64,000 bases of DNA, from NCBI GenBank assembly GCA_947561395.2, contig OX387183.1, forward strand, positions 27,268,853 to 27,332,852, written 5' to 3'. The stretch comes from Buxus sempervirens. Lineage: Eukaryota; Streptophyta; Magnoliopsida; Buxales; Buxaceae. The notes under the pieces are model-generated. The model was not told the origin of the DNA and did no database searches. It was given only the letters and a program-made list of their open reading frames with translations. A program made the position numbers and the translations under genes. Below, one piece after another: positions 8,475-50,126 of this stretch. Every line of letters starts with the position of its first letter. Positions within the stretch are counted from its first letter, which is position 1.

Positions 8475-11400
8475 CTATAGGGCACTGAAGCCGCTGACGG
8501 ATGAGTCGGATATTGGTAGAGGAGCATCCTGGCATAACCTACCCCAGTTAGTGACACCGAAGCCGCCAATGGTTGAATCGGATATTGGCTAAGGAGCGTT
8601 CGGGTACTACTAGCCGAAATCTTAGGGCACCGAAGCTGCCGACAGATGAGTCGGATATTGGTAGAGGAGTGGATAGCATAGCCTACCCCAGTTAGTGACA
8701 CCAAAGCTGCCGATGGTTGAATCGGATATTGGCTGAGTGTCCGGGTACTACTAGTCGAAATCTTAAGGCACCGAAGCCGCTGACGGATGAGTCGGATATT
8801 GGTAGAGGAGCATCCGGGAATAGCCTACCACAGTTAGTGACACTAAAGCCGCCGATGGTTGAATCGGATATTGGCTAAGGAGCATTCAGGTACTACTAGC
8901 CGAAATCTTAGGTGTAAAACCCCAGTTTTGAAAAAAAAAATATTTTAAATAATATAATAATAATAGTAATAATAATAACAAGTAGACTATTGAAAAAAAA
9001 ATTTATTAGCAGGTTTAATCAAAACGTTATTTGCAGCCAAAGAGTTGTGGTCTTTAGTTGACAAAGAAAATAAGTAGAATGTTATTAAGAAATTAAGTGC
9101 GAACTTAAAAACTTTAGTGAACAGGAACTTAGCAAAAAAATAATCCGAGTAACCTCAACTTCAATGAGGGGTAAATATGAAATCCTGAGGGTTAAGTTAA
9201 TGCCGGGGTAAATTAGGTTAAACTTTGCGAAGTCTATAAATAGATTGCTAAGATTGAAAATTTTCGGAGGTTGGGGGAAAAGTCGCTGCTTGGTATAGGG
9301 CGTTGGCCGAAAAGCTTGGATCTCTGGAGGCCAAAAAGCTTGGATCTCTGGAGTCTGTAAGAAAGATAGGAAGCTAGAAGAAGATCCTCAGTACAGGTGA
9401 GTGGCACCGTTTTAAAACTGGGTTTTCGTATTATTCGTAAGTTTAATCTGAATGCATATGTTTTCTGGAAGGAGATAGTCATGTGTAGTTTTTGATCTAA
9501 CAGAGAGTTGAAGAAACAGGAGGGTATTCGCCAAGTGGCGCCAACCCAGAGCCAACTCACCCTGCTCGGCGAAACTAAAATTTGGTCTTACCGCCGAGCC
9601 CGTGCTCAACGCGCGCCTAGCTCGCGAGGTTTTCTTTTTCTTCGCGCCTAAGTCGCACGCTCAGCTCGCGCCCAGTAACCCTGCACTAAGCGCGGCGGGT
9701 TTTGTTAAGTGATTTCTTACCGCCGACCTCGCGCCTAGCACTAGAGGTCAGCGCAAGGTCGATCCTTTGCCGAATGTTGAGATTTGAGAAAAATAAGATA
9801 CAAAGAACACTTTGAGGGTTTTAAGCACTTACTTATTGACTAGTTGGGATGTTAGAAAATACTATATTAGTCAAACCAAAATTTGAGACTATTGAATCAC
9901 CTTCTGAACATTAGTTCGAACTATTCGAAAGGAGAGTTTAAGAAAGTTAGGCAGAATGTTGCTATTTATGATCCTATACGTAAATGAGCCATGTTTGGTA
10001 TATATACTTCATCTGTTTTTTGTTTTTGGAAATTGTATAAATTGGTTTCATTCACCATCAAATGCCTGAAAAGTATTGAATGGTTTTGTGTGAGTAAGAG
10101 GAATCTTATTGCATGAGAATGTCGTTGTGAGGTTGGGAACCTTCAAATTGCGTGAGTTGATGTTCTGGTTGGAACAACTTGTGATGAGTGTATTGGGATA
10201 CACAGGTTTGAAATCAATGTGGGTTTACTGAATGCGGAGATTATATAGTTATTTATCGGTTTTGGTTTAGCTTGTCCTGGATCCAGAGTCTAAGCTTAGT
10301 AATGTGTTGCCTTTATTTTATTGGAGTAATGGCATGGCCATAGAGTGTTGCCACGACCGGTGTAGAGCAGCCAGAAACCCTGAGTAGGCCTGGTTTTCAA
10401 TGTCGAAACCCTGAGTAGGCTGGCATTGGATGACGAAACCTTGAGTAGGCCGTCATTTCAGAGTATCCGAAACCCTGAGTAGGCCGGAACTGTGTACATG
10501 GAGGTGTGGAGGCCGCTCTGGCATGTTGATTAACCAAATCAAATAATTGCATGACAATGACCACTATGGGATTTTTGTTTATATATTAATTGAAGGTAGT
10601 GGAAGTTGGTTTTCTCAGAACATGGAGATGATGATATTGTTTCTTTTGAAACCAATTGGAAATTTTGTTGACAAATGTATTCCTTTTTAAATACGTATTG
10701 ACTGTCATCATCTATATTTTTGTGCCAAATAAATCACCAAGGGTTTAGTTGGTTTCACCAAGTTATTGCCTGCTTACTCGTGTGATTATTCGATTCATAT
10801 TTTACAACTGGTAAATTGTATTTGTGCATGCATGTGCTGCTCGCTGAGATATTCGTATCTCATCCCTTTGCTTCTGTTTTGCTTTTCAGATACGTATGGA
10901 GAGCCGATACTGGCGGGTTGTTTATTGGGCCATGTGAGTTATTACTTTGAGGTTTACTTTAGCGCACTCTGTTTGTAGTTTTCTTATTGGACTCATGTTT
11001 TTCCTTCACTTTGATAGTGCGATCCTGCTATACATAACAATCTCTGGAGATGAGTTACGGGTTTTCTACATGACTCAGATCTAGAGCGTTACATTAGGGC
11101 ACCAAAGCTGCCAATGGATGAGTTGGACATTGGTAGAGGAGCGTCCTAGCATAGCCTACCCCAGTTAGTGACACCGAAGCCGCCGATGGTTGAATCAGAT
11201 ATTGGCTAAGGAGCGTCCAGGTACTACTAGCCGAAATCTTAGGGCACCGAAGCCGCTGACAGATGAGTCGGATATTGGTAGAGGAGCGTCCTGGCATAGC
11301 CTACCACAGTTAGTGACACTGAAGCCGCCGATGGTTGAATCGGATATTGGCTATGGAGCGTCTAAGTACTACTAGCCGAAATCTTAGGGCACCGAAGCCG

Positions 11401-11825
11401 CCGACGGATGAGTCAGATATTGGTAGAGGAGTGTCTTGGCATAGCCTACCCCAGTTACTGACACCGAAGCCGCCGATGGTTGAATCGGATATTGGCTAAG
11501 GAGTGTCCGGGTACTACTAGCCGAAATCTTAGGGCACTGAAACTACCGACGAATGAGTTGAATATTGGTGGAGGAGCGTCCTAGCATAGCCTACCCCAGA
11601 TAGTGACACCGAGGCCACCAATGGTTGAATCAGATATTGGCTCAAGAGCGTCCGGGTACTACTAGCCGAAATCTTAGGGCACCGAAGCCGCCAACGGATG
11701 AGTCGAATATTGGTGGAGGAGCATCCTGGCATAGCTTACCCTAGTTAGTGACACCGAGGCCACCGATGGTTGAATCGGATATTGGCTAAGGAGCGTCCAG
11801 ATACTACTAGCCGAATCTTTTTATT
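8475..11825 (+). repeat. 145-bp tandem repeat array between ORF1 and gag, element A
   Basis: About eight units: three at 8475-8912 and five at 11094-11825, split by solo LTR S2. Unit starts 'ttagggcaccgaa' fall at 11239 and 11384, giving a 145-bp period. Each unit is two related half-units of about 72-75 bp: one has 'gatgagtcggatattgg', the other 'gttgaatcggatattgg', and the second ends in 'gtactactagccgaaatc'. Body B has only about three units at 31966-32430, so copy number varies. The period is not a multiple of three, which argues against a coding repeat. Confidence 0.85.
8913..11093 (+). repeat. Solo LTR S2 (gypsy, TGTAAAACCCC type, 2181 bp)
   Basis: Termini are TGTAAAACCCC and GCGTTACA, flanked by a perfect 5-bp duplication TTAGG (8908-8912 and 11094-11098). 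It lies inside a 145-bp repeat unit that reads through once it is removed. The strand is chosen from the TATA box CTATAAATAG at 9236-9245, about 320 bases from the TG end. Downstream are a GC-rich stretch of GCGCCTAG-like words (9590-9770) and four short repeats of GAAACCCTGAGTAGGCC (10374-10490). The termini match S4 at 27843-30851, which lies in the opposite orientation. A chromovirus (Tekay/Del-like) origin is a guess. Confidence 0.85.
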
Positions 11826-31965: not shown

Positions 31966-32430
31966 GTAGGGCACTGAAACTACCTACGGATGAGTTGGAT
32001 ATTGGTGGAGGAGCGTCCTGGCATAGCCTACCGCTTTCAGTGACACCAAAGCCGCTGATGGTTGAATCGGAGATTGGCTGCGGAGCGTCCGGGTACTACT
32101 AGCCGAAGTCTTAGGGCATCGAAACTGCCAACGGATGAGTTGGATATTGGTGGAGGAGCATCTTGGCATAGCGTACCCCTTTCAGTGACACCAAATCCGC
32201 CGATGGTTGAATCGGAGATTGGCTACGGAGCATCCGGGTACTACTAGCCGAAGTCTTAGGGCACCGAAACCGCCAACGGATGAGTTGGACATTGGTGGAG
32301 GAGCGTCCTGGCATAGCCTACCCCTTTCAGTGACACCAAAGCTACAGATGGTTGAATCAGAGATTGGCTGCGGAGCATCCGGGTACTACTAGCCGAAATC
32401 TTAGGGCACCGAAACCACCGACGGATGAGT
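31966..32430 (+). repeat. 145-bp tandem repeat array of body B
   Basis: Three units plus a partial fourth, with unit starts near 31968, 32112, 32257 and 32401. They have the same two-half structure as the array at 8475-11825 but only about 40% of its copy number. Units within B resemble each other ('ccgctttcagtgacacc') more than those in A, suggesting homogenisation within each element. Confidence 0.83.
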
Positions 32431-32805: not shown

Positions 32806-33982
32806 TGTAAGTGTGAAAACGCACACTCCTTTTATGACAAATGGTTGACAAATTATGTCTTCTAATAAATCTTCAAGATGTGCAGATTAAATAATGAAAA
32901 TTCAGTAAAGAAGAAGAAGACGATGCTGCCACACAGCTACCACGCAGCTGGTAGCCCAATGAAATGAAAGATTTTCTAAACAGAGCATTTTATTGTAAAG
33001 GCACTTGCGAAGATCAACGCCGCTGCCACCCCGCTGGCAGCGCATAAGTGAATCAGTGCTTTGAAAGAAAGGTACGTGCACTAGCGTCGTAAGGCGACGC
33101 CGACACGCCGCTGGTAGCGCAGAGCGAGATTGAAGATTATATGATCAGCCGTGCACATGCCGAGTTCTCTCCCGCTAGCAGCTCGCTGGCAGCGCGACCT
33201 TAACTGATTCAACCTGTTCTGAGCGGGATTTGAGTTCGCTTCCAGCCGTCTACCCCGATCACTTCACGACGCCACCAGCGCTCGACGCGATCTGAGTTTT
33301 ATTCTTTAAATAGACGTGCTGTAATTTTTAGTGAGGACTTTTTCCTTTGGATCATTTTGATTTCGGACCTTGAGGTGTTTGAGATTTGATCAAATCTTCC
33401 TTAGAGAGTCGGCGATCGAGTGAGGGGGAGATCTGAGATAGATCACCTGGAATTGATGGTAGAGGATTCTTCTTCAATTCGAAACTTCATCTGATCGTGT
33501 GATCGCCTGGATTGGTGATCGGCTTTGATTGATGCGTAGGTGGATTCCTACTGCATTGGATCGTCTCAGTGGATTCTGAGGTGATTGTTGCGATCTGGAT
33601 TGATCGTGTTCTGCAGCTTGTGGATTCAAGCTGTATTGCAGTTCGTGGATTCGAACTGTGGATCACTGGTGAGTGATTGTTTGCGATCTGGACTGATCGT
33701 GTTCTGCAGCTTGTGGATTCAAGCTGTGTTGCAGTTCGTGGATTCGAACTGTGGATTGCTGTTGAGTGAGTTCAATTGTAAAGGTTAAGTGTGTACTCCC
33801 TTGTAATTGTCTTTTCATTCAATAGTGGATTTTTGAAGGGTTAGTCGCCTCATATAGACTCGAGGTTTTTCCTGGATCTGGATCCAGGTTTCCTCGTATA
33901 ATTCTCTGTGTATTGTTTCCGCATTGTTAAATTCTGAATTGTTGTAGATCGTGGACCTAGAGAGTAGTCCTCTACTCTTTCA
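32806..33982 (+). repeat. Solo LTR of the copia family (1177 bp)
   Basis: Starts TGTAAGTGTGAAAAC and ends CTCTACTCTTTCA, matching the LTRs at 38549 and 47597. It is flanked by a perfect 5-bp duplication ACATG (32801-32805 and 33983-33987). It sits between two codons' worth of integrase zinc-site sequence that is continuous without it. By eye it is more diverged from the two intact LTRs than they are from each other, so it is an older insertion that lost its body by recombination. Confidence 0.92.
33501..33751 (+). promoter_or_regulatory. Nine constant-loop stem-loops in the copia solo LTR
   Basis: Stem, loop TGGATT, then complementary stem, nine times: GATCGCC 33501, GTAGG 33536, CTCAG 33565, CGATC 33591, CAGCTTG 33614, CAGTTCG 33639, CGATC 33684 (loop TGGACT), CAGCTTG 33707, CAGTTCG 33732. 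Stems are 5-7 bp and perfect apart from one G-T pair in the first. The last six are two copies of a three-hairpin block repeated at about 93 bases. They lie downstream of the TATA-like site, so they should be in the transcript. Confidence 0.85.
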
Positions 33983-37372: not shown

Positions 37373-37638
37373 GCCCGTATTTGAAATACGGGCAGGGCAT
37401 GCCCGTATTTGAAATACGGGCAGGGCATGCCCGTATTTGAAATACAGGCAAGCTTCTAGAAGAGGACGCGCGTCACTGTATGGCGGGACACGCGTCCCTT
37501 ACGTCCGATTCTGCGAGATTTGCAAATGTGCGTTTTTCGCCCGTATTTGAAGTACGGGCAGGGCATGCCCGCATTTGAAGTACGAGCAAGGCATGCCCGT
37601 ATTTCAAATACGGACACGACCTTTTTGCCTATAAATAG
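37373..37638 (+). promoter_or_regulatory. L4 core promoter with CCCGTATTT palindromes
   Basis: Six palindromes of the form CCCGTATTTGAAATACGGG lie at 37373-37450 (three) and 37539-37614 (three), joined by 'cagggcatg'. The TATA box CCTATAAATAG is at 37628-37638. The same word, more degenerate, recurs at 38385-38489. Confidence 0.72.
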
Positions 37639-39038
37639 ACCCTCACCCTCTCCTTCTTCAACATTACCACGCCCAAACTCTGCCCAAACCCTGCCACCCC
37701 CAATACCTAACCCAGAAATACCCATTTTACCCCTGAAATGCTGCCAAACCTTCCCATTTCACCCTGCAAGCATAAATAACCCATCGAACCTCTTTCAAAT
37801 TCAGTTCAAAGAATCCAACGGGACGCGGAAGCGCTGCCGGAATCCTCGGAGATCAACATACTAAAGAAAAGGTAATGGCAAGGAAGCCTATTTGGTAACA
37901 TGACAATTCATATACATTAAATTTGATCTTTTCTTATAAACTTTGTTTATTTTCTATTCTTCCAACTATTTCTCATCATATTTGATCTGTTTTGCATGGC
38001 TTTGGTCTCCCCATGGTGAGAGGGAGACCTTACATGAAAGAAGGAAGTTAGCTTTACAAAAGCCTAAAAGGTTACTTGGATTAACATGATCTTCACGGCA
38101 AGGTAATCATTAAACAAATCTATTGTATCCCAAATTCTAATCCCCCCTTTCCTATTCTCATTGGATATGATCGTGCATGAAGAAGAAGGATCCCAAAAAG
38201 TGGCAAAAAGAAGAAAACTATTCCTTTCGATGAACGCCAAAGAAAGAAGCAATACAAGGTTGAAAACAAGACATGTTTGTCACTGTAAATGAGTTGGAAA
38301 CCTCTACAGAAGTTGCTGGAGACCCCAAGAAGATAGCCGGACCGATCCCAAGCAAAATTGGCACAAAAAGATGAAAACTAGGTGTGCCCGTAAATGCAGT
38401 GCAGGCTGGGTGTGCCCGTGTTTTCTGTACGGGTAGGTTGACCCGTATTGCATTTACGGGTAAAGCCAGCCCGTATGGCAAATACGGGCAATTACAAAAA
38501 TAACTTAAAAAATACAATTTTTCGCCCGGTTGGATTTGGTCCGACCCGTGTAAGTGTGAAAACTCACACTCCTTATATGGCAAATGTTTGACAAATTATA
38601 TCCTCTAATAATCTTCAAGATGTTCAGAATCAAAATATAAATTCTATGAATTTAGTAAAGATGAAAGTGAGGCTGCCACACAGCTACCACGCCGCTGGTA
38701 GCTCAAGCAAATGTAAAGACTTCTAAAAGAAGAACATTTCGTAAAGGCACCTGCAATGAAGAACGCCGCTACCACTCCGCTAGCAGCGCATAAGTGATAT
38801 AGCACTTTGAAAGTAAAGCACGCGTACCAATTTCGTAAGGCGACGCCGACACGCCGCTGGCAGCGCAGAGCAAGAGTGAAGAGACTGCATATCAGCTGTG
38901 CACATGCCGCGTTCCCTCCCGCTAGCTGCGCGCTCTTAACTGAGTATTTTGTATTTGAGCGGGATTGAGTTCGCTACCAGCCGTCTACCCCGATCGCGCC
39001 ACGACGCCACCAGCGCTCAACGCGATATGAGATTTCTT

Positions 39039-39048
39039 CTTTAAATAG
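39039..39048 (+). promoter_or_regulatory. TATA-like box of the copia 5' LTR
   Basis: CTTTAAATAG lies just after the U3 word array and about 200 bases before the stem-loop array. The same box is present in the solo LTR near 33305-33314 and the 3' LTR near 48087-48096. Transcription would start about 30 bases on, so R and U5 include the stem-loops. Confidence 0.55.
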
Positions 39049-39236
39049 ACGAGCTGTATTCTTTTTGAAGGGACTTTTTTCTTTGGATCAATTTGATTTT
39101 GGATCTTGAGGTGTTTGAGATTCGATCAATTCTTCTTTAGAGAGTCGGTGATCGAGTGAGGGGGAGATCTGAGATAGATCACCTGGAATTGAAGTTTGAG
39201 GATTCTTCTTCAATTCGGAACTTCACCTGATCGTGT

Positions 39237-39487
39237 GATCGCCTGGATTGGTGATCGACTTTGTTGGATGCGTAGGTGGATTCCTACTGCATTGGATCGT
39301 CTCAGTGGACTCTGAGGTGATTGTTGCGATCTGGATTGATCGTGTTCTGTAGCTTGTGGATTCAAGCTATGTTGCAGTTCGTGGATTCGAACTGTGGATC
39401 ACTGTTGAGTGATTGTTTGCGATCTGGATTGATCGTGTTTTGCAGCTTGTCGATTCAAGCTGTATTGCAGTTCATGGATTCGAGCTG
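39237..39487 (+). promoter_or_regulatory. Nine constant-loop stem-loops in the copia 5' LTR
   Basis: Same nine positions as in the solo LTR: stems start at 39237, 39272, 39301, 39327, 39350, 39375, 39420, 39443 and 39468. Loops are TGGATT except TGGACT in the third and TCGATT in the eighth. The fifth stem reads TAGCTTG / CAAGCTA where the solo LTR has CAGCTTG / CAAGCTG, a two-sided change that keeps pairing. The ninth stem is partly broken (CAGTTCA / CGAGCTG). Confidence 0.85.
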
Positions 39488-39720
39488 TGGATTGCTGTTG
39501 AGTAAGTTCAATTGTAAAGGTTAAGTGTGTGCTCCTTTGTAATTGTCTTTTCATTCAATAGTGGAAATTCGAAGGGTTAGTCGCCTCATATAGACTCGAG
39601 GTTTTTCCTGGATCTGGATTCAGTTTTCCTCGTATAATTCTCTGTGTGTATGTTTCCGCATTGTTAAATTCTTAATTGTTGTAGATCGTGGACCTATAGA
39701 GTAGATCTCTACTCTTTCAA

Positions 39721-39735
39721 TTGGTATCGGAGCCT
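39721..39735 (+). other. Primer-binding site of the copia element
   Basis: TTGGTATCGGAGCCT starts two bases after the LTR. The usual plant copia PBS is TGGTATCAGAGC, complementary to the 3' end of initiator tRNA-Met; here one A is G. Gag-Pol starts 45 bases further on. Confidence 0.85.
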
Positions 39736-39779
39736 ATTCACTTTGAATTGCTATACAAAGTGTGATCTAGATCTATAGC

Positions 39780-42700
39780 ATGGACTTTGGAAAAGAAGGA
39801 GGATCTGCCTCTAGACCTCCATTATTTGAAGGTAACAATTATTCTTACTGGAAAGCAAGAATGAGAGCTTACCTGAAATCTATCGATGAGCGTGTCTGGC
39901 TCTCGGTTTGTAATGGTTATCATCCACCTGTGATCACAACAGAAGGAGGTGTTGTGATGCCTAAACCTCGTGATCAGTGGAGTAAAGCTGAATCTGATCT
40001 ATGTGGATGGAACAACAAGGCAATGAATGCCTTATTTTGTGCTATTAGTGTTGAGGAATTCAGGAGAATTTCCTCATGTGAAGTCGGTAAGGAAGCTTGG
40101 GACATTCTTGAGGTTACTCATGAAGGAACCTCAGCTGTCAAGCTGTCTAGACTTCAAAGACTTACAACATCTTTCGAAACTCTATACATGAAAGATGATG
40201 AGTCTTTTGATGAATTTTATGCTAGACTGTCAGATATTGTTAATTCAAGTTTTAACCTTGGAGAAAAGATCTCTACATCTAAGGTTGTTAGAAAAATCTT
40301 GAGATCTTTGCCTGAAAAATTCAGACCAAAAGTTACTGCCATTCAAGAGGCAAAAGATGTTGATACCATGAGAATTGAAGATCTGGTAGGATCTTTACAG
40401 ACTTATGAGCTTGATCTGAATATTCCTAAAATAAGTAAAGGAATAGCTCTAAAATCTGTAAATAATGAAGAATCAGATAATTCTGATGTAGATATGGATG
40501 AATTAGTTCTCTTAGCTAAAAAGTTCAAGAAAATGTTTAAAAAGAGACAATCTAATCCTGTGTTATCCATGGACAGATCTAATAGAAGATCTGATAAGAA
40601 AGTTTCTGATCTAAGAAAGGAGAAGAAATTTTCTCAGAATGATGAAGTTCAATGTTATAAATGTAGAGGATTTGGACATGTTGCTTCTGATTGTCCCTCA
40701 AAGGATAAAAAGAAAAAGACAAATTATCAGGTTACTTGGGATGACAGTAATACTGATAATTCTTCACAATCAGATGAGGATATTTCTGCTAATTTTACTG
40801 CTTTCAATTCTTTTTACTCATCTTCTTCTGGTAGTTCAATCTCTGGCATTGCAGGAGATAATAAAGAGACTTTATCAGATGATGAAGAAGAATTACAAGA
40901 AGCCTATAATCAGCTCTATAAGGAATTCAATAGAGCTCAGAAGAAAGTCAAGAAATTGAGTAAAAAATTGAAGGAATCACAAACAGAGAAAAATAAAGCT
41001 CTTGCAGAAATAGATTCAATAAACAAGAAGTTACTTGAAAGACATGCCAAAGAAAATTTTCTGGTAACTTCTTTGACTGAAAAAACTGAAAAATTAAAAG
41101 AAAAAGAAGCTCAGATTTCTGCACTTCAAGGTAAAGTTATTGAACTTGAGAAAGTTTCAAATTCAATTCAATCTAATGCTTCAAATTTTTCTTCAGGAAA
41201 TCATCAAATTGATGAGGAATCAACTTCAAAGGAAGTTCCTGAATGCTCAAATTCTGCTAAAAAGAGAATGAGTGTAAGTAATCAAAATAAGGAATTTTCT
41301 CAGAAAAATTCTGCTGGAGAAGTAAGCTCAACAGGTAAAATTTCAAAATCTGAAAAATCTAAATCTGTACAGTTTAGAAATACTGTCAAATCTGGAAATT
41401 TTGATTCTTCTGAATATAGATTCATACCTGTGTGCCATCATTGCAATAAAAAGGGTCATATAAGACCAAAGTGTTATGTTTTGCATGGTTTTCCCAAGGG
41501 AGGTTTTGACAGTAAGAGGAAAGTAAATCAAAGTCGGTCCTTGGATTTATATAACAGATTTGATTCCTTGTTGAAATTGACTGAATCATTAAATAAGGAA
41601 GTTACAAATCTGTCAAAGAAACTTCCTTCAAAATCTCAAGTTGTTGATGAAGGGACTTCTCAGAAAACTCATGAAAAACAGATTTGGGTTAGAAAAGATT
41701 CCTTAGTTGCAAATGTGGTTCATATAGCTTTGAAAGCTCATGATGTCAACATGTGGTACTTGGATAGTGGTTGTTCAAGACATATGTGTGGACATAAGTC
41801 TATGTTTAGTACCTTTGAAGAATATTTTGGTGGAAGTGTAACATTTGGTGATGGAAGCACTTCTCAAGTCAAAGGTAGAGGAACAGTAACTGGTCCTAAT
41901 GGAGTTTGTCTAAAAAATGTTTTATTTGTCTCTGGTTTGAAGGCAAACTTAATCAGTATTAGCCAGTTATGTGATTCAAGATTGTTTGTAAATTTTACCA
42001 GAAAAGAATGTAAAATTTTGGATAATTCTGGTAGAACTGTTCTTATAGGTGTAAGAACAAGTGACAATTGTTATGGAATCATTGGAAACAATGAAAAATC
42101 TTTAAAATCTTCTGTATGCAATGAAATTGATTTGTGGCATAGAAGACTTGGTCACATTAACTATAGAGATTTGTCAAAAATCTCTAAATCTGAACTGGTT
42201 AGAAGAATTCCCAAGTTTGGGAACAATAAAAAGAAAGGAATGTGTGGTCCTTGCAATCAAGGAAAGCAAATCAAAGCCACACACAAGAAAACCAACATTG
42301 TAGGAACCTCTAGACCATTAGAACTGATTCATATGGACTTGATGGGACCTACAAAGACTGAAAGTCTTGGAGGAAAGAGGTATATCTTTGTTGCTGTAGA
42401 TGACTACAGTAGATACACCTGGGTAAATTTTCTAAGAGAAAAATCTGAATGTTTTGATTGCTTTAAACAATTGTGCTGTCAAATTCAAGTTGAAAAGAAC
42501 TTGCAAATAGGGAGGATTGTTAGAATAAGATCTGATCATGGGATAGAATTTGAAAATCATATGTTTTCCAAGTTCTGTGAAGAACAAGGAATTAAACATG
42601 AATTTTCTGCTCCTAAGACTCCACAGCAAAATGGAGTTGTGGAAAGGAAGAATAGAGTTCTACAAGAGATGGCTAGAACCATGATGATAGCCAAGAAAGT

Positions 42701-44735
42701 GTCAACAAAATTCTGGGCTGAAGCTATAAATACTGCCTGTTATATAAGTAACAGAGTATATGTCAGATCTGGGTGGAAACAAACTCCTTATGAAATCTGG
42801 AAAGGAAAACAACCAAACTTGAAATATTTTAGAGTTTTTGGAAGTAAATGTTATATCTTAAGGGACAGAGAAAATCTAGGAAAATTTGATTCTAGAAGTG
42901 ATGAAGGAATTTTTCGAGGATATTCTTCTTCAAGTAGAGCATACAGAGTTTTTAACTTGCAAAAATCTGTTGTAATGGAGTCTATTAATGTGTTAACAGA
43001 TGATGAAGGAATTGACTGTGAATTTTTGCAGGTTGTAGATGAAGAGGATGAAGTAAGAGATTCTTCCTCAAGCAATGAAATTGTTCCTCTGACAAAAACT
43101 CTCAAAGATCACCCAACTGAGCAAATTGTTGGAAATATTTCAGATGGAGTAAGAACAAGACATCAATTACATAATGAGGTAAGATTTTCTTCTTATCTAT
43201 CTCAATTTGAGCCAAAATCTTATAAAGATGCCTTGGTCGATGAATCTTGGTTAAATGCTATGCATGAAGAACTAAACCAATTTACTAGAAATAATGTATG
43301 GGAATTGGTTGAAAGACCCTCTAATCTGAATGTGATAGGAACCAAATGGATTTTTAAGAACAAATCTGATGAAAATGGGGTTGTAACCAGAAATAAAGCT
43401 AGGCTTGTTGCTCAGGGATACACTCAAGTAGAAGGAATAGATTTTGATGAAACCTTTGCTCCTGTAGCTAGGTTAGAGTCAATCAGATTACTTTTGTCTA
43501 TTGCATGCTATTTGAAGTTTAAACTGTTTCAAATGGATGTTAAGAGTGCATTCTTGAATGGATATCTGAATGAAGAGGTTTATGTAGAGCAACCTAAAGG
43601 ATTTGAGGACTCAAATCATCCTAAACATGTTTTTAAGCTGAACAAAGCCTTGTATGGACTCAAACAAGCTCCTAGAGCTTGGTATGAGAGACTCACCTCA
43701 TTTTTACTTGAATCTGGATTTATGAAAGGAAATGTAGATAAAACTCTGTTTATTCAAAGAGAGTCCAAGCATATTTTAATTGCTCAAATCTATGTTGATG
43801 ACATAGTGTTTGGATCTACTTCTGAAAATCATGCTCACTCTTTTGGAGACTTAATGAAGAGTGAATTTGAGATGAGTATGATGGGTGAACTGAATTTTTT
43901 CTTAGGACTTCAGATTTATCAATCTCAACAAGGGATTTTTTTCTCTCAAGCAAAATATGCTAGAAATCTTGTCAAGAGATTCAGTTTAACTCATGCAAAA
44001 CATGCTAGGACTCCTATGAGTACTAGCTTAAAGCTTGGAAAAGATGAATCTGGGAAGGATATAGACCCTACCTTGTACAGAGGGATGATTGGAAGTCTTC
44101 TGTACTTAACAGCAAGTAGACCTGATATAAGTTTTAGTGTTGGAGTTTGTGCAAGATATCAGGCTAATCCTAAAGAATCTCATCTAAATGCTGTGAAAAG
44201 GATTATAAAGTATGTTAATGGAACTGTTGATCTGGGAATTTGGTTCTCCAAAGAGACTAACCCATATCTTACTGGATACACTGATGCTGATTGGGCTGGG
44301 TGTATGGATGATAGAAAAAGCACCTCTGGTGGTTGCTTTTATATGGGTAATAATCTCATTGCTTGGTTAAGCAAAAAGCAAAACTCAGTTTCACTGAGTA
44401 CAGCTGAAGCAGAGTACATTGCTGCAGGAAGCAGTTGTACTCAACTAATTTGGATGAAACAAATGCTATCTGATTATGGTTTAGATCAGGACCAAATGAT
44501 TCTCTTCTGTGACAATCAAAGTGCCATAAATATTTCCAAAAATCCTGTTCAACACTCAAGGACTAAACATATAGACATCAGGCATCACTTTATAAGAGAG
44601 TTAATTGAAGACAAAACTGTTATGATTGAATATATATCTACTGAAAAACAGTTAGCTGATATTTTCACTAAACCTTTAGATCAGAACAGATTTGAAACTC
44701 TTAGGAAATCCCTAGGAGTATGCTCTCAAAACTGA
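39780..44735 (+). CDS. Copia Gag-Pol polyprotein, intact (1651 aa)
   Basis: One open frame encodes all core functions. Gag comes first, with the plant copia gag core in the first 240 residues. It has a CCHC knuckle [14 protein letters not shown] (292-305), a long coiled coil (about 364-462) and a second zinc knuckle [14 protein letters not shown] (552-565). Protease follows with [11 protein letters not shown], catalytic D662. Integrase has an HHCC domain from H787 and catalytic D853, D919 and E955 (DD35E). Reverse transcriptase has YVDD at 1338-1341, preceded by GTKWIFKNK and [10 protein letters not shown]. RNase H has TDADWAGC (D1502), SLSTAEAEY and LFCDNQSA, and ends with [10 protein letters not shown]. 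There is no stop or frameshift, and no separate gag frame, so the Gag:Pol ratio must be set another way. The ATG is the first in frame after the PBS. Confidence 0.95.
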
Positions 44736-45978
44736 AAATCAGGTTCTGTTTTGAGTTAATTTAGATGTAAAATGATTTACATGTCTGTTCAAAATGAATT
44801 TATGTGTTCTTGACACTAAAATCTAAATTCAGGAAGCTTGAGTCTATGCATATTGACAGAAATGTTGTGTTTTCAACTATCATTTTTGTCTTAAACACCT
44901 TTGTATATTGAAGTTTATTATGTGTTGAAGCTTGGGATCTATAGGCTATCACCTTTATGAAAAGAAAAGTTTTGGAAATGGTTGCCACAGAGATTAGAGT
45001 GAAAGCCACTGTAATTCTCAAAAAGAAAAAGAGAAAGAAGGTATATTCTTGAAATGAACTGTAAACTCAGGTTTTTTAAGGGTCAATGCCTTCTACAAAA
45101 AGAAAAGAAAAAGAGATCAGAAAAGACTACCTATCTCTGATGTGCGAAAGCCACCAAAATGAAGTTTGGGGTATGTCTATACTTACCAAGTATGATTACA
45201 CTAAAATAGCCTTTCATATGCATAAAGTGTACAAGTCAAAAATATTTCACACACTACACAAGCAATGTTTCATTAATATGCGTGTGTGCTCAATATCTTG
45301 AAAAATTTATAGTATGAGAAACCATGAAGGAAATTTTGGTCATAGATATGAAAAGTGTCACATCTGAATTAACCTTAATAGGTTCTTCAAGATCAGTTTT
45401 GTGATAAGTACTTCTTAGATTGAATAAAAGTTGATTATCTGAATGATTTTTAGTTTAGTTAAAATCTTAGCTTTGTGTTTAGATGTATGAGTTTTTCATG
45501 AAAAATAGTTGAAACTCTTTTTATAAATTTTTGCCTTGTAAATGTGTTTTTTCTTGTTTGTGCATGTGCACCTTCTACGTCGCTAGAAGCGTGCTGGTAG
45601 CCTTCTCTCTTTCTTCATGCTTTGGCACCTGCCTTGTTAAGCGTCGCTGGATGCACGCTGGTAGCGTGTTCTGTTTGTCTATAAATAGTGAAAATCTGTT
45701 TCACTTTTTACCCTTGTTTTTTTCTTGTCTGCGGTGCTTCTCGCTCCTCGCGTCGTGCTTTCTTTGCCTTCGTGCTTACCTTCCTTCACCGTGTTCACTG
45801 TTCAGGTAAAATTTTTTTTGCTGTCTTCTTCTTGCTTCTTCAATGTTTTTCTTCCTATTTCTATGTTCTTCTCTCGTTCTTCTTAGTTAGGGTTTGGAAG
45901 TTTGTTCTGCCATTAGGGCATTGTCGAGCTTTGCTTGTATTCTTCTCTCTCGTCTATTCTTTTCTGTTTTGTTTCATC
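44736..45978 (+). other. Interval between copia pol and the second ORF
   Basis: About 1.2 kb. The first 800 bases are AT-rich with several A/G tracts (45020-45040, 45096-45117), which could act as extra polypurine tracts; Sireviruses are reported to carry multiple ones. The last 400 bases hold promoter-like motifs (45575-45690). A hydrophobic frame in phase with the second ORF from 45688 is probably a by-product of T-rich sequence, not a signal peptide. Confidence 0.55.
45575..45690 (+). promoter_or_regulatory. Candidate internal promoter of the copia second ORF
   Basis: CGTCGCTAGAAGCGTGCTGG (45578-) and CGTCGCTGGATGCACGCTGG (45643-), each followed by TAGC, resemble the CCGCTGGTAGC words of the LTR U3. 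The TATA box CTATAAATAG follows at 45679-45688, about 290 bases before the ORF start. The order is the same as in the LTR: word array, then TATA. Confidence 0.5.
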
Positions 45979-47265
45979 ATGCCTCCCAAGAAGAAGTCTA
46001 GAACTGATTCTCCTTCCACCTCTTCTCCCCTAGTAAGATCCTCACCGGTTGTCTCTTCTCCACCGGTGAGACCCCCTTCCCCTTCTCATTCCTCTGAACC
46101 ATTCATTAGAAATGGTTTATCTGATTTTAATGAGTTCTTCAAGCACAGGCCACTCCTTTTGGAAAGGGCCATTAAGCTTGATTCATTTTCTGAATCTCCT
46201 CTCTTCTCATTGTTTTCGGACAATGGTTGGAAAAAATTTGCTTTGATAAGTGGTTTTGCATATCCTGACCTGGTTCGAGAGTTCTATTTGAACCTCCACC
46301 ATCTTCATTCTGCCAATCAAGGATTTGTCAAGGCCTATGTCAGGGGCATCTCTTTCGACTTCTCGAAAGAGCTTATCTCATCTCTTCTAGAACTGCCCCT
46401 TGTTGATTCTCCCTCCTTTGACTTCTTTGATTCTCACTCTGATCCTCCCATGGAGTCAATCATTCCGTCACTTATTGTTCAGGGTGCTCCCACTTCCATA
46501 AAAAATAAGCCCACCTATCTTCCTCATGGTTCTCTTCAAGATCTTCTCCGGATCTTGAATCTGTTTATCTGTGCTTCTCTGGTTCCCTCAGATCATCATT
46601 CTGAGATCTCTCACTCTAGAGCACGACTCCTTCATGCTATCTGGAACAGAGACAGTGTCTGTCTTCCGTCAATCATTTTCAATCAAATCCTTCAGTCTCG
46701 GAATTTAAAATCCAAGACTGCTGCTCTTCCATTTGGGATTTTTATCTCATTCTTGTGCATTCATCAGGGGGTCCTCCCTGATCCTGTCGAAATGGTTCTT
46801 CATCCTAAACCTCCCATTGATGACTCCACTCTCACCCGAAGCAAACGAGCAAATCCTTTTCGGTTGGCTTCTTCAGAGCCTTCCTCTTCTCAGTCCTCCT
46901 TGTCCAGTTCGGATGCTATGGCAATCCTGGACAAGTTGAACTCCATGCAAGCCTCCCAGGAGGCTTTCAATTCTAAGGTTAGGGCTCACATGCTCATGAT
47001 GAGCATGTTCAAATCAGAGACCCAGGAGAAGCTAGAGAAGCTTGCAAAGGATGTTGACTTTGCTTGTGGCGAGGTGCAACGGGATGTTGCTGCTCAGCAA
47101 CGAATGCAAAACGAAGCTGATCATTTTCTGGGCAGCATTCGAAGAACTCAGCTGGAGATGGATCACAAGCTCTGTTGGTTGCACTCCCGGTCCCAAGATG
47201 CTTATCGGCATTACTCCAAAACTTGGGATCCGAAACCTCCTTCCAGAAAAGGGGAGTCATTTTGA
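45979..47265 (+). CDS. Post-pol ORF of the copia element (428 aa), plant transposon-protein-like
   Basis: Starts MPPKKKSRTDSPSTSS, a basic Ser/Pro-rich head that could be a nuclear signal (residues 1-40). A globular part follows (about 45-290) with NGWKKFALISGFAYPDLVREFYLNL, VRGISFDFSKELISSLLELP and ARLLHAIWNRDSVCLPSIIF. This resembles the 'putative plant transposon protein' domain (PF20167, from memory), which is found on many plant retroelements and has no known activity. The C-terminus (about 310-428) is a predicted coiled coil. There is no signal peptide or transmembrane segment from this start, so it does not look like an envelope glycoprotein. The ATG was chosen over an upstream in-frame ATG at 45688 because protein-like composition begins at 45979. 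It sits 1.24 kb after pol in the same orientation. Confidence 0.72.
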   Translation: MPPKKKSRTDSPSTSSPLVRSSPVVSSPPVRPPSPSHSSEPFIRNGLSDFNEFFKHRPLLLERAIKLDSFSESPLFSLFSDNGWKKFALISGFAYPDLVREFYLNLHHLHSANQGFVKAYVRGISFDFSKELISSLLELPLVDSPSFDFFDSHSDPPMESIIPSLIVQGAPTSIKNKPTYLPHGSLQDLLRILNLFICASLVPSDHHSEISHSRARLLHAIWNRDSVCLPSIIFNQILQSRNLKSKTAALPFGIFISFLCIHQGVLPDPVEMVLHPKPPIDDSTLTRSKRANPFRLASSEPSSSQSSLSSSDAMAILDKLNSMQASQEAFNSKVRAHMLMMSMFKSETQEKLEKLAKDVDFACGEVQRDVAAQQRMQNEADHFLGSIRRTQLEMDHKLCWLHSRSQDAYRHYSKTWDPKPPSRKGESF

Positions 47266-47596
47266 TGATGTTGCTGCTGGTGCTGGTTGATGGTTGCTGG
47301 TTGAGGATCATCAAGTTGTTTTTTGTTGTTTGTTCTGTTGGTCTGTGTTTTTTTTTTTTTTTGTTGGTCTTCGGGGTTTCTGGATGTAGGTTTATGGGGG
47401 AGTTTTTTGTTTGGCTGAATGTGTATATAGTTGCTGAACACTGTATATTTCGTCTGAATACTGTATATTTTCTCTGAACATGAATGAAATTCTGAATTCT
47501 CTCTTATCATGGTGTTTTGAATGTTTAAATGGAATTCTGAATTTGATAATAAGAACTGTTGTAAGTTTGTTGTCAGGCATTTGCCAAGGGGGAGAT
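47266..47596 (+). other. Copia 3' untranslated region and polypurine tract
   Basis: Non-coding, with a T tract at 47348-47362. It ends in AAGGGGGAGAT (47586-47596), directly before the TG of the 3' LTR, the primer site for plus-strand DNA synthesis. Confidence 0.85.
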
Positions 47597-48767
47597 TGTA
47601 AGTGTGAAAACTCACACTCCTTATATGGCAAATGTTTGACAAATTATATCCTCTAATAATCTTCAAGATGTGCAGAATCAAAATATAAATTCTATGAATT
47701 TAGTAAAGAGGAAAGTGAGGCTGCCACACAGCTACCATGCCGCTGGTAGCTCAAGCAAATGTAAAGACTTCTAAAAGAAGAACATTTCATAAAGGCACCT
47801 GCAATGAAGAACGCCGCTACCACTCCGCTGGCAGCGCATAAGTGATATAGCACTTTTAAAGTAAAGCACGCGTATCGGCTTCGTAAGGCGACGCCAACAC
47901 GCCGCTGGCAGCGCAGAGCAAGAGTGAAGAGACTGCATATCAGCTATGCACATGCCGCGTTCCCTCCCGCTAGCTGCGCGCTCTTAACTGAGTATTTTGT
48001 ATTTGAGCGAGATTGAGTTCGCTACCAGCCGTCTACCCCGATCGCGCCACGACGCCACCAGCGCTCAACGCGATATGAGATTTCTTCTTTAAATAGACGA
48101 GCTGTATTCTTTTTGAAGGGACTTTTTTCCTTGGATCAATTTGATTTTGGATCTTGAGGTGTTCGAGATTCGATCAATTCTTCTTTAGAGAGTCGGTGAT
48201 CGAGTGAGGGGGAGATCTGAGATAGATCACCTGGAATTGAAGTTTGAGGATTCTTCTTCAATTCGGAACTTCACCTGATCGTGTGATCGCCTGGATTGGT
48301 GATCGACTTTGTTGGATGCGTAGGTGGATTCCTACTGCATTGGATCGTCTCAGTGGACTCTGAGGTGATTGTTGCGATCTGGATTGATCGTATTCTGCAA
48401 CTTGTGGATTCAAGCTGTGTTACAGTTCGTGGATTCGAACTGTAGATCACTGTTGAGTGATTGTTTGCGATCTGGATTGATCGTGTTTTGCAGCTTGTGG
48501 ATTCAAGCTGTGTTGCAATTCATGGATTCGAGCTGTGGATTGCTGTTGAGTGAGTTCAATTGTAAAGGTTAAGTGTGTGCTCCTTTTTAATTGTCTTTTC
48601 ATTCAATAGTGGAAATTCGAAGGCTTAGTCGCCTCATATAGACTCGAGGTTTTTCCTGGATCTGGATTCAGGTTTCCTCGTATAATTCTATGTGTGTATG
48701 TTTCCGCATTGTTAAATTCTTAATTGTTGTAGATCGTGGACCTATAGAGTAGATCTCTACTCTTTCA
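47597..48767 (+). repeat. 3' LTR of the copia element (1171 bp)
   Basis: Same length and termini as the 5' LTR, with about 30 base differences by eye. The stem-loop array is at 48285-48535. Its fifth stem is partly broken (CAACTTG / CAAGCTG) and its ninth more so (CAATTCA / CGAGCTG). All loops that I can check are TGGATT or TGGACT. Confidence 0.95.
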
Positions 48768-49460
48768 ACCCAAAAACTTAAAACCCGACCCAATGAGTAA
48801 CTTGGACTTCTTTAAGTCCATTTTTGGACTATGGGCCTAGATGGGCCCACCAAGACCCCCCTTGGGCCCACATGAGTGGCCACATTTTGACTAGCCTACA
48901 CCAGGCCTGTTTTCAATAAACAGGCCCAGGCCCCTTAACCCTTGGCTAATGGGCCAAATCCAAGCCCACTTAGCCCATTGCATGTGTAAATAGTTTAATT
49001 TAATAAATAACCAAAAAAAAAAAGGGGTTACCCAATAACCTTACTGGGCCCCAAGCCCAACTTTGGCAACCTACGGGTCTTCCAAGGGGACCCGCGTCCG
49101 ACCCACTTCACTTAAATAAAAAGATAAAATGAAATAAAAAGGGGCCCACACCTCTAGAGGACCCCGCCAGACCAAAAAAGTACATGCTGGTCTAGGAAGG
49201 GTGAAAATTGACTCAAAACTATGGAAACCCGAGGGACCCGTCAGACCGACGGGGGCGGGCCGGGGTCTCTTCGAACTTCCCCGGAAGTAACCGAGGACTT
49301 AGCTAGAACTCTGAAAAGCCGCAGACCAGACTTAGACCCGAATAGGGCAATCACCATGTCTGCCTGCACCTCTCAGGCAGTGGCGACTCCGAAAGTCCCG
49401 AGGTACGCACGAACCCATGTGCGCCCCGTGTGCAATCTAGGCCAAATTTAGGTGCGCACA

Positions 49461-50126
49461 GCACTCTTACGTAAATATGGTGTTACACATAGAGTTGCCA
49501 CTCCTTATCATCCCCAAACAAGTGGTCAAGTTGAGGTTTCCAACCGGGAACTGAAGCACATATTGGAAAAAATAGTTAACTCATCCAGAAAGGATTGGTC
49601 AAAGAAGCTTGATGATGCATTGTGGGCATATCAGACTGCTTTCAAAACACCAATTGGAATGTCTCCATACTGACTTGTCTATGGAAAAGCTTGTCATCTC
49701 CCGGTGGAATTAGAACACAAGGCCCACTGGGCAATGAAAACTTTGAATTTTGATCTTGTGACAGCTAGAGAGAAGAGGCTTCTACAACTAAATGAGATGG
49801 ATGAATTTTGGCTTGATGCTTATGAGAATGCTTGAATTTACAAGGACAGAACAAAACTCTGGCACGATAAGCACATTCAACGGAAGGAGTTTCTTGTTGG
49901 CCAGAAAGTGTTACTCTACAACTCTAGGCTGAGATTTTTTCCGGGCAAGCTTCGTTCTCATTGGTCTGGCCCTTTTATTATGGTAAGAGTTTACCCCCAT
50001 GGAGCTGTAGAGATTCAATATGACACAAAAGGCACCTTCAAGGTCAATGGTCAGAGATTAAAGACTTATGTTGATGAGGATTTCAAGAACTACAAGTCCT
50101 CCTATTTGCTCCACCCGTCAACATAA
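49461..50126 (+). pseudogene. Athila-like gypsy integrase, 3' part (broken)
   Basis: The reading frame opens at the L4 junction with [30 protein letters not shown], the end of the integrase core including its catalytic E. It continues [27 protein letters not shown], then [20 protein letters not shown], a hallmark of Athila-type pol. Stops are at 49671-49673 and 49833-49835. The last part (49908-50126) reads [18 protein letters not shown] and ends near 50126. The upstream half of pol is absent, because L4 abuts it without a duplication I can match. Confidence 0.83.

Follow-up and report, generated by a model that had tools for sequence, protein, structure and literature searches.

The 64,000-nt window analyzed here, from Buxus sempervirens contig OX387183.1, contains a solo long terminal repeat (LTR) and a full Copia element at 38549-48767 (Table 1). 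The two LTRs of the full element are 97.5% identical, and its 5' LTR shares 87% identity with the solo LTR. The gag-pol frame is intact and has the Copia domain order, with integrase before reverse transcriptase (rve 847-951, then RVT_2 1174-1417). In addition to the CCHC knuckle found by Pfam, a second CX2CX4HX4C pattern, which Pfam did not find, is seen by eye farther on. The best of 18 homologues of gag-pol residues 1-500 is an Olea europaea protein with 58% identity across half of the query. As Sireviruses are defined in PMC2829016, the polypurine tract (PPT) AGGGGGAG stands beside the 3' LTR, and it does so in the full element; the primer binding site (PBS) TATCGGAGC is one base off the consensus TATCAGAGC given there. 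A cluster of PPT copies 5' of the 3' LTR is a further Sirevirus trait; in this element there is one AGGGGGAG at that place plus GGGGGAG at 47396, and two other copies of AGGGGGAG are within the LTRs. We refer to the element as a Sirevirus-like Copia (Pseudoviridae).

Several other features were recorded in the window. The second open frame, in the env position, matches PF20167, which bears the Pfam name putative plant transposon protein. GCTGGYAGC boxes are found at 38694, 38856, 45593, 45657, 47742, 47827 and 47904; these sites belong to the U3 regions of the two LTRs and to the stretch immediately 5' of the env-position frame. They occupy places typical of the Sirevirus RM boxes, yet are without the CGG-CCG core. 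Beside the full element, at 37373-37613, two tandem arrays with a 28-bp period lie in inverted orientation about 90 bp apart. Tandem repeats with a 145-bp period occur at three places in the window (8478-8912, 11094-11819 and 31967-32430).

Table 1. Coordinates of the LTRs, the hairpin arrays and the parts of the full element, numbered from the first base of the window
Feature	Position	Strand	Details
Solo LTR	32806..33982	+	target duplication ACATG on each side
TGGAYT hairpin array, nine hairpins, solo LTR	33500..33752	+	
Hairpin 1	33500..33521	+	loop TGGATT 33508-33513; 8 pairs incl. G.U
Hairpin 2	33531..33557	+	loop TGGATT 33541-33546; 5 pairs, one-base bulge, 5 further pairs
Hairpin 3	33559..33586	+	loop TGGATT 33570-33575; 11 pairs incl. 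G.U
Hairpin 4	33589..33608	+	loop TGGATT 33596-33601; 5 Watson-Crick and 2 G.U pairs
Hairpin 5	33612..33635	+	loop TGGATT 33621-33626; core CAGCTTG/CAAGCTG
Hairpin 6	33638..33659	+	loop TGGATT 33646-33651; core CAGTTCG/CGAACTG
Hairpin 7	33682..33701	+	loop TGGACT 33689-33694; duplicate of hairpin 4
Hairpin 8	33706..33727	+	loop TGGATT 33714-33719; duplicate of hairpin 5
Hairpin 9	33731..33752	+	loop TGGATT 33739-33744; duplicate of hairpin 6
5' LTR of full Copia element	38549..39719	+	target duplication ACCCG at 38544-38548
TATA-like TTTAAATAG	39040..39048	+	5' of array; also at 33305 and 48088; putative promoter
Matching array, 5' LTR of full element	39236..39488	+	
PBS TATCGGAGC	39725..39733	+	
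Intact gag-pol frame	39771..44735	+	gag_2, CCHC, integrase, RVT_2
Second open frame, env position	45685..47265	+	PF20167
PPT AGGGGGAG	47587..47594	+	adjoins 3' LTR
3' LTR of full Copia element	47597..48767	+	target duplication ACCCA at 48768-48772
Matching array, 3' LTR of full element	48284..48536	+	

Nine hairpins with differing stems stand in a row in the solo LTR. All nine stem-loops reported by a first-pass annotation of this DNA were recovered, also by RNA folding, and the loops are as it described them, TGGATT in eight of the nine and TGGACT in one. Several stems are longer than first described once G.U pairs and one bulge are admitted. Since a 93-bp tandem duplication repeats hairpins 4-6 as hairpins 7-9, the array has only six independent stems. 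Measured from the TATA-like box, it occupies the stretch from ~195 to 445 bp farther downstream, with the PBS beyond it. The box lends support to a predicted location in the RNA leader, which the annotation had proposed from the place of the array downstream of the box.

Both LTRs of the full element carry the array too, as had been noted (39237-39487 and 48285-48535), but with differences in loops and stems that were omitted at the time. In both of these LTRs the loop of hairpin 3 is TGGACT and the stem of hairpin 9 is opened by an A.C beside the loop. The 5' LTR has TCGATT as the loop of hairpin 8, and the 3' LTR has an A.C in the stem of hairpin 5. Differences that separate the solo LTR from both full-element LTRs are found at 2/112 stem, 2/54 loop, 6/88 spacer and 85/489 U3 positions.

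RNA folding of the plus strand at 33490-33770 gives the nine hairpins with open hexaloops (MFE -115.1 kcal/mol, z -7.7), which none of 200 shuffles equalled. The minus strand of the region also folds well (z -9.6), so folding by itself cannot tell the strand. Hexaloop hairpins with at least five Watson-Crick pairs number nine in 33501-33751: seven have TGGATT, one TGGACT and one the unrelated TGGTGA, while hairpin 1, whose third pair is G.U, falls outside this count. In 2000 dinucleotide shuffles of the array the mean was 0.17 qualifying hairpins and the maximum 3, and the same loop never occurred twice. Each left arm of the six independent stems pairs with its own right arm (40 of 42 positions in all), and when the right arms were permuted in all 720 ways only the true order did so. 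In 508 segment-by-strand tests (500 nt each) across the 64 kb, one loop was shared by at least four different stems only over the three arrays, and three other segments reached three; the maximum was likewise three in 256 tests on the outer ends of loci. Rfam gave no match above the gathering score in 38000-49500.

The predicted leader is also stable as a whole (z -6.0, 20 shuffles), and in the full element it has four AUGs before the gag AUG, three of them inside the 5' LTR array. These features would suit a structure that acts without any reader of the loops, through ribosome scanning or shunting, pausing of reverse transcriptase, strand transfer or the juxtaposition of poly(A) signals. We consider this quite unlikely, since it leaves unexplained a loop that is constant within the family despite variable stems.

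The array is abundant in the source genome (676.5 Mb), where three TGGAYT at array spacing occur at 9535 places, several of them per array, versus 390 for the reversed pattern. Among 80 loci, several of which were the same array, 76 matched the LTR family; the four without a family match (L031, L032, L033 and L041) were left out. Many of L031-L060 are the same array, and 78 entries were collapsed to 59. To these, 37 and then 19 were added without further collapse, which gave a set of 115 copies that still holds near-identical LTR pairs; 40 further places were left out. The distance between two anchors ranges from 237 to 444 bp, and each copy has 4 to 12 TGGAYT hairpins of at least four pairs (median 9). 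Tandem duplications are evident in the window array and among the copies. Of the 5750 pair cells in hairpins 1-6, 5610 are paired. Between subfamilies, hairpin 2 alternates between G-C and A-U, and hairpin 5 among G-C, G.U and A-U; unpaired states include T.T in hairpin 1 (50/115 copies) and A.C in hairpin 2 (19/115). Because most of the copies were located through array similarity or the loop pattern, a bias toward intact loops, the constancy of the loop in most of them is due in part to how they were located. For 19 copies (of 38 beyond the window) chosen by a flank outside the array, the loops of hairpins 1-6 are TGGAYT in 113 of 114 cases and TGGGTT in one.

Searches beyond this family gave the following. 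A second TGGAYT family, with 3' arms that do not begin with C, was sought with a pattern that excludes arms starting with C, and hence the window family; it matched 230 places versus 177 for the reversed control. Four of these places (L081-L084) were rejected, being TTCGTGG-rich repeats with many TGGAYT and no hairpins. No viral contig matched the array pattern; when viral contigs were sought through the gag-pol protein, four stretches fit a pattern, none encoding a relative. Four bacterial contigs from the array-pattern search of genome contigs were taken as chance, and their outer 500 nt served among the controls.

Pairing was analyzed on a tree of the 115 copies built from the flanks only, with the changes in the stems traced onto its branches. 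Branches with more than two copies below them were counted as internal and taken to represent the active lineage, and the remaining tip branches were taken to represent mostly decay after insertion. On internal branches 21 changes keep or restore pairing and 4 break it, compared to 66 and 55 on the tips (Fisher one-sided P = 0.0046). Other cut-offs gave P of 0.009-0.023, leaving out each hairpin in turn 0.001-0.038, and trees that included array columns 0.002 (non-stem columns) and 0.009 (all). An earlier test on a tree of 59 copies, counted per column, gave 11 kept or restored and 4 broken on internal branches, and 33 and 23 on the tips. When the partners were slid by one to three columns, internal branches had 5-13 kept and 15-24 broken. 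When A.C was allowed as the wobble pair instead of G.U, as in RNA of the other strand, the internal count became 13 to 12. The excess, being present only under the pairing rules of the sense strand, thus argues for RNA. On internal branches stem columns also changed less often than spacer columns (0.25 and 0.69 changes per column), while on the tips the two were about alike (1.23 and 1.31); in the two trees that included array columns this contrast had P of 0.001-0.008. The changes in the loop on internal branches were four at position 5 (the Y) and one at position 4, with no others.

Covariation across many copies, which the annotation had set as the test of its proposal, is seen as an excess of pair-keeping changes on internal branches but not at significance in the strict counts of distinct changes: counting each kind of change once gave P of 0.06 and 0.12, and minor pair types were 15 paired and 10 unpaired when present in at least three copies versus 23 and 27 in fewer (P 0.18). 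The events in the branch test may also be dependent through recombination between copies. A by-product of mutation would agree with these strict counts and with the tandem duplications; covariation would then be mimicked by template-switch correction of quasi-palindromes, by tandem duplication and by symmetric deamination at CHG sites. It gives, however, no reason for a constant loop, would not favor internal branches or the rules of the sense strand alone, and would tend to convert the many G.U pairs to Watson-Crick pairs. We regard it as very unlikely for the array as a whole.

The same mutational processes are the best reading of the change that first drew attention to the structure. The first-pass annotation had pointed to a C>T and a G>A in the fifth stem of the 5' LTR, which together keep the pairing, as a sign of selection. 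The double change is real, but it is private to the 5' LTR: neither the 3' LTR of that element nor the solo LTR has it. The two LTRs of an element are identical at insertion. The change therefore post-dates insertion, when no selection on the RNA of the array would be expected. The two substitutions are transitions at CAG/CTG, a CHG context that the palindrome mirrors, and CHG methylation is known in plant DNA; decay of methylated sites on the two sides of the palindrome would explain the pair better. G>A changes private to the 3' LTR also exist; they break stem 5 and weaken stem 9. Selection on the structure, as proposed by the annotation, thus draws nothing from the 5' LTR and is supported instead by the contrast of internal and tip branches, by the other families described below and by stems 5 and 6. 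The seven-pair cores of these two hairpins, 25 bp apart, differ by exactly two base pairs, with both sides changed and the same loop. Overall, the structure of the array is very probably under selection in the sense RNA; the evidence is good, not overwhelming.

Palindromes are a known feature of Sirevirus LTRs. In PMC2829016 the RM boxes are described as palindromes with a CGG-CCG core, clustered upstream of the TATA box. A maize consensus appears in PMC10760457, which, like PMC5311732, cites a 2016 study on RM-box structure and small RNAs. RM boxes and the array are alike in being many small palindromes clustered in Sirevirus LTRs, but RM boxes have conserved arms and a short variable center, whereas the array has variable arms and a conserved TGGAYT center. 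Two features of RM boxes were tested and both failed: i) no CGG-N0-6-CCG was found on the plus strand of the element; and ii) the array lies ~195 bp downstream, not upstream, of TTTAAATAG. The array was therefore rejected as a set of RM boxes. The palindrome clusters of Sirevirus LTRs (PMC2829016) would lend some weight to DNA-level regulatory palindromes akin to RM boxes, but the reversed conservation of arms and center, the position, and the retention of G.U pairs, which are mismatched in DNA, make this highly improbable. The probability is just as slight that the array is a host-side hairpin, important chiefly for yielding small RNAs by which the element is silenced. Structured Sirevirus LTR regions do accumulate small RNAs in maize, according to PMC10760457, but such a source would be costly for the element and could not be expected to maintain pairing or loop in the active lineage.

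Related arrays with other loops are present in the same genome. Further gag-pol copies, 35-59% identical to P0004, were found with this public homologue, and the DNA just upstream of gag was taken for six of them. Five have a PBS and form two groups by DNA similarity; the similarity to P0004 and the PBS suggest that both are Sirevirus-type. In the first group, F1 (L145) and F1b (L149) have five GGGAG-loop hairpins each, on four distinct four-base stems, and F1 has two additional hairpins with the loop GGGA. In the second, F3 (L147), F4 (L148) and F5 (L150) have AGTT on five distinct stems each, always within a G-C pair; these arrays are placed relative to the PBS only, upstream of it. The shared-loop counts were reached in none of 300 shuffles for F1, F3 and F4, and for F1b and F5 the shuffle maximum was two (200 shuffles), with four loop lengths tried per copy. 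F1b has eight GGGAG sites (L149 889-1122) versus seven in F1 (L145 858-1055), the extra ones in a repeated segment, and the number of hairpins looks fluid in this group, as in the window family. In the sixth copy, F2 (L146), neither PBS nor array was seen in the stretch taken, with at most two stems per loop over 751 nt, and it was not counted as a leader group. Palindromes of the form GTATCCGG..CCGGATAC lie upstream of its gag. Counting the window family, three groups have an identified leader; all of them carry an array, and the three loops differ.

A constant loop on variable stems suggests some reader of the loop. A host RNA-binding protein, acting on how the retrotransposon RNA is exported, stabilized or translated, would be expected to impose the same constraint on structure and loop, and the predicted place of the array in the leader would suit it. 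A single host reader does not, however, predict three groups in one genome with differing constant loops. The loops differ between groups, so the reader presumably changes with the element, which favors Gag. A host protein is therefore the less likely reader of the two, and we think it unlikely.

From the hairpins computed here, the sense-strand constraint on pairing, the constancy of the loop among family members and its differences from group to group, we infer that the array may act in cis, as an RNA element within the predicted leader of this Sirevirus-like Copia, and that it would serve as a multivalent packaging label bound by Gag; our confidence in this is evenly balanced. The sense transcript would fold as a row of short hairpins with the same loop, UGGAYU, on differing stems. 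The pairing would be maintained while the element lineage is active and lost after insertion. The element's own Gag would bind the exposed loops through its CCHC knuckle or knuckles, and several such sites would jointly select the RNA of that family for packaging. The Gag of the element has a CCHC knuckle, and at least one G is exposed in all three loops. According to PMC7599994, retroviral nucleocapsid knuckles grip guanosines that are exposed in loops, and many such sites are present in the packaging signal of HIV-1. Two reports count against Gag labels: HIV-1 tolerates an altered GGAG loop (PMC7599994), and no role in vivo could be discerned for the packaging signals of STNV-1, according to PMC6475782.

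Dimerization by kissing loops was rejected on inspection: UGGAYU is not self-complementary, and A(A/G)TCCA occurs on the plus strand of the element only at 43762 and 46709, outside the leader. Other readings considered were that the loop might be an m6A, a Smaug-type or a tRNA B-box site.

Known systems resemble the array in part. The Drosophila gypsy element carries an array of su(Hw) sites in its 5' UTR, which are repeated protein sites in the leader of an LTR element, as may be the case for the window array; these are DNA sites, whereas the window array would consist of RNA hairpins. The packaging signals of STNV-1 have a loop motif. Like the array, they are several short degenerate hairpins, proposed in PMC6475782 to act jointly on a coat protein, but they are dispersed, whereas the window array is tandem and lies in the predicted leader of a retrotransposon. 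The SL2/SL3 psi of HIV-1, with many nucleocapsid sites according to PMC7599994, has several leader stem-loops near the PBS with exposed guanosines, as has the array in its predicted leader. Unlike psi, the array repeats an identical loop on as many as 12 hairpins with unrelated stems, and its part in binding and packaging is putative. The accessible part of an HMM study of LTRs describes a stem-loop at the PPT and no hairpin array with a constant loop (PMC3601003). The first-pass annotation knew of no description of such an array, and none was found in the literature searched (titles and abstract starts, most subscription journals being outside the scope).

LTR retrotransposons make up a large share of many plant genomes, and to our knowledge it is poorly understood how they select their own RNA for packaging. 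We tentatively suggest, with somewhat less than even confidence, that the arrays are family-specific RNA address codes of Sireviruses: the constant loop would match the Gag encoded by the same family, and families expressed together would each package their own RNA; loop and Gag would coevolve, the loop marking the family. Because its hairpins can be counted and its loop is specific to the group, the RNA element leads to a prediction for every Gag as to the loop that it would bind, and it can be searched for in other plant genomes. Furthermore, it permits a test of selection in which the decay after insertion serves as a built-in control.
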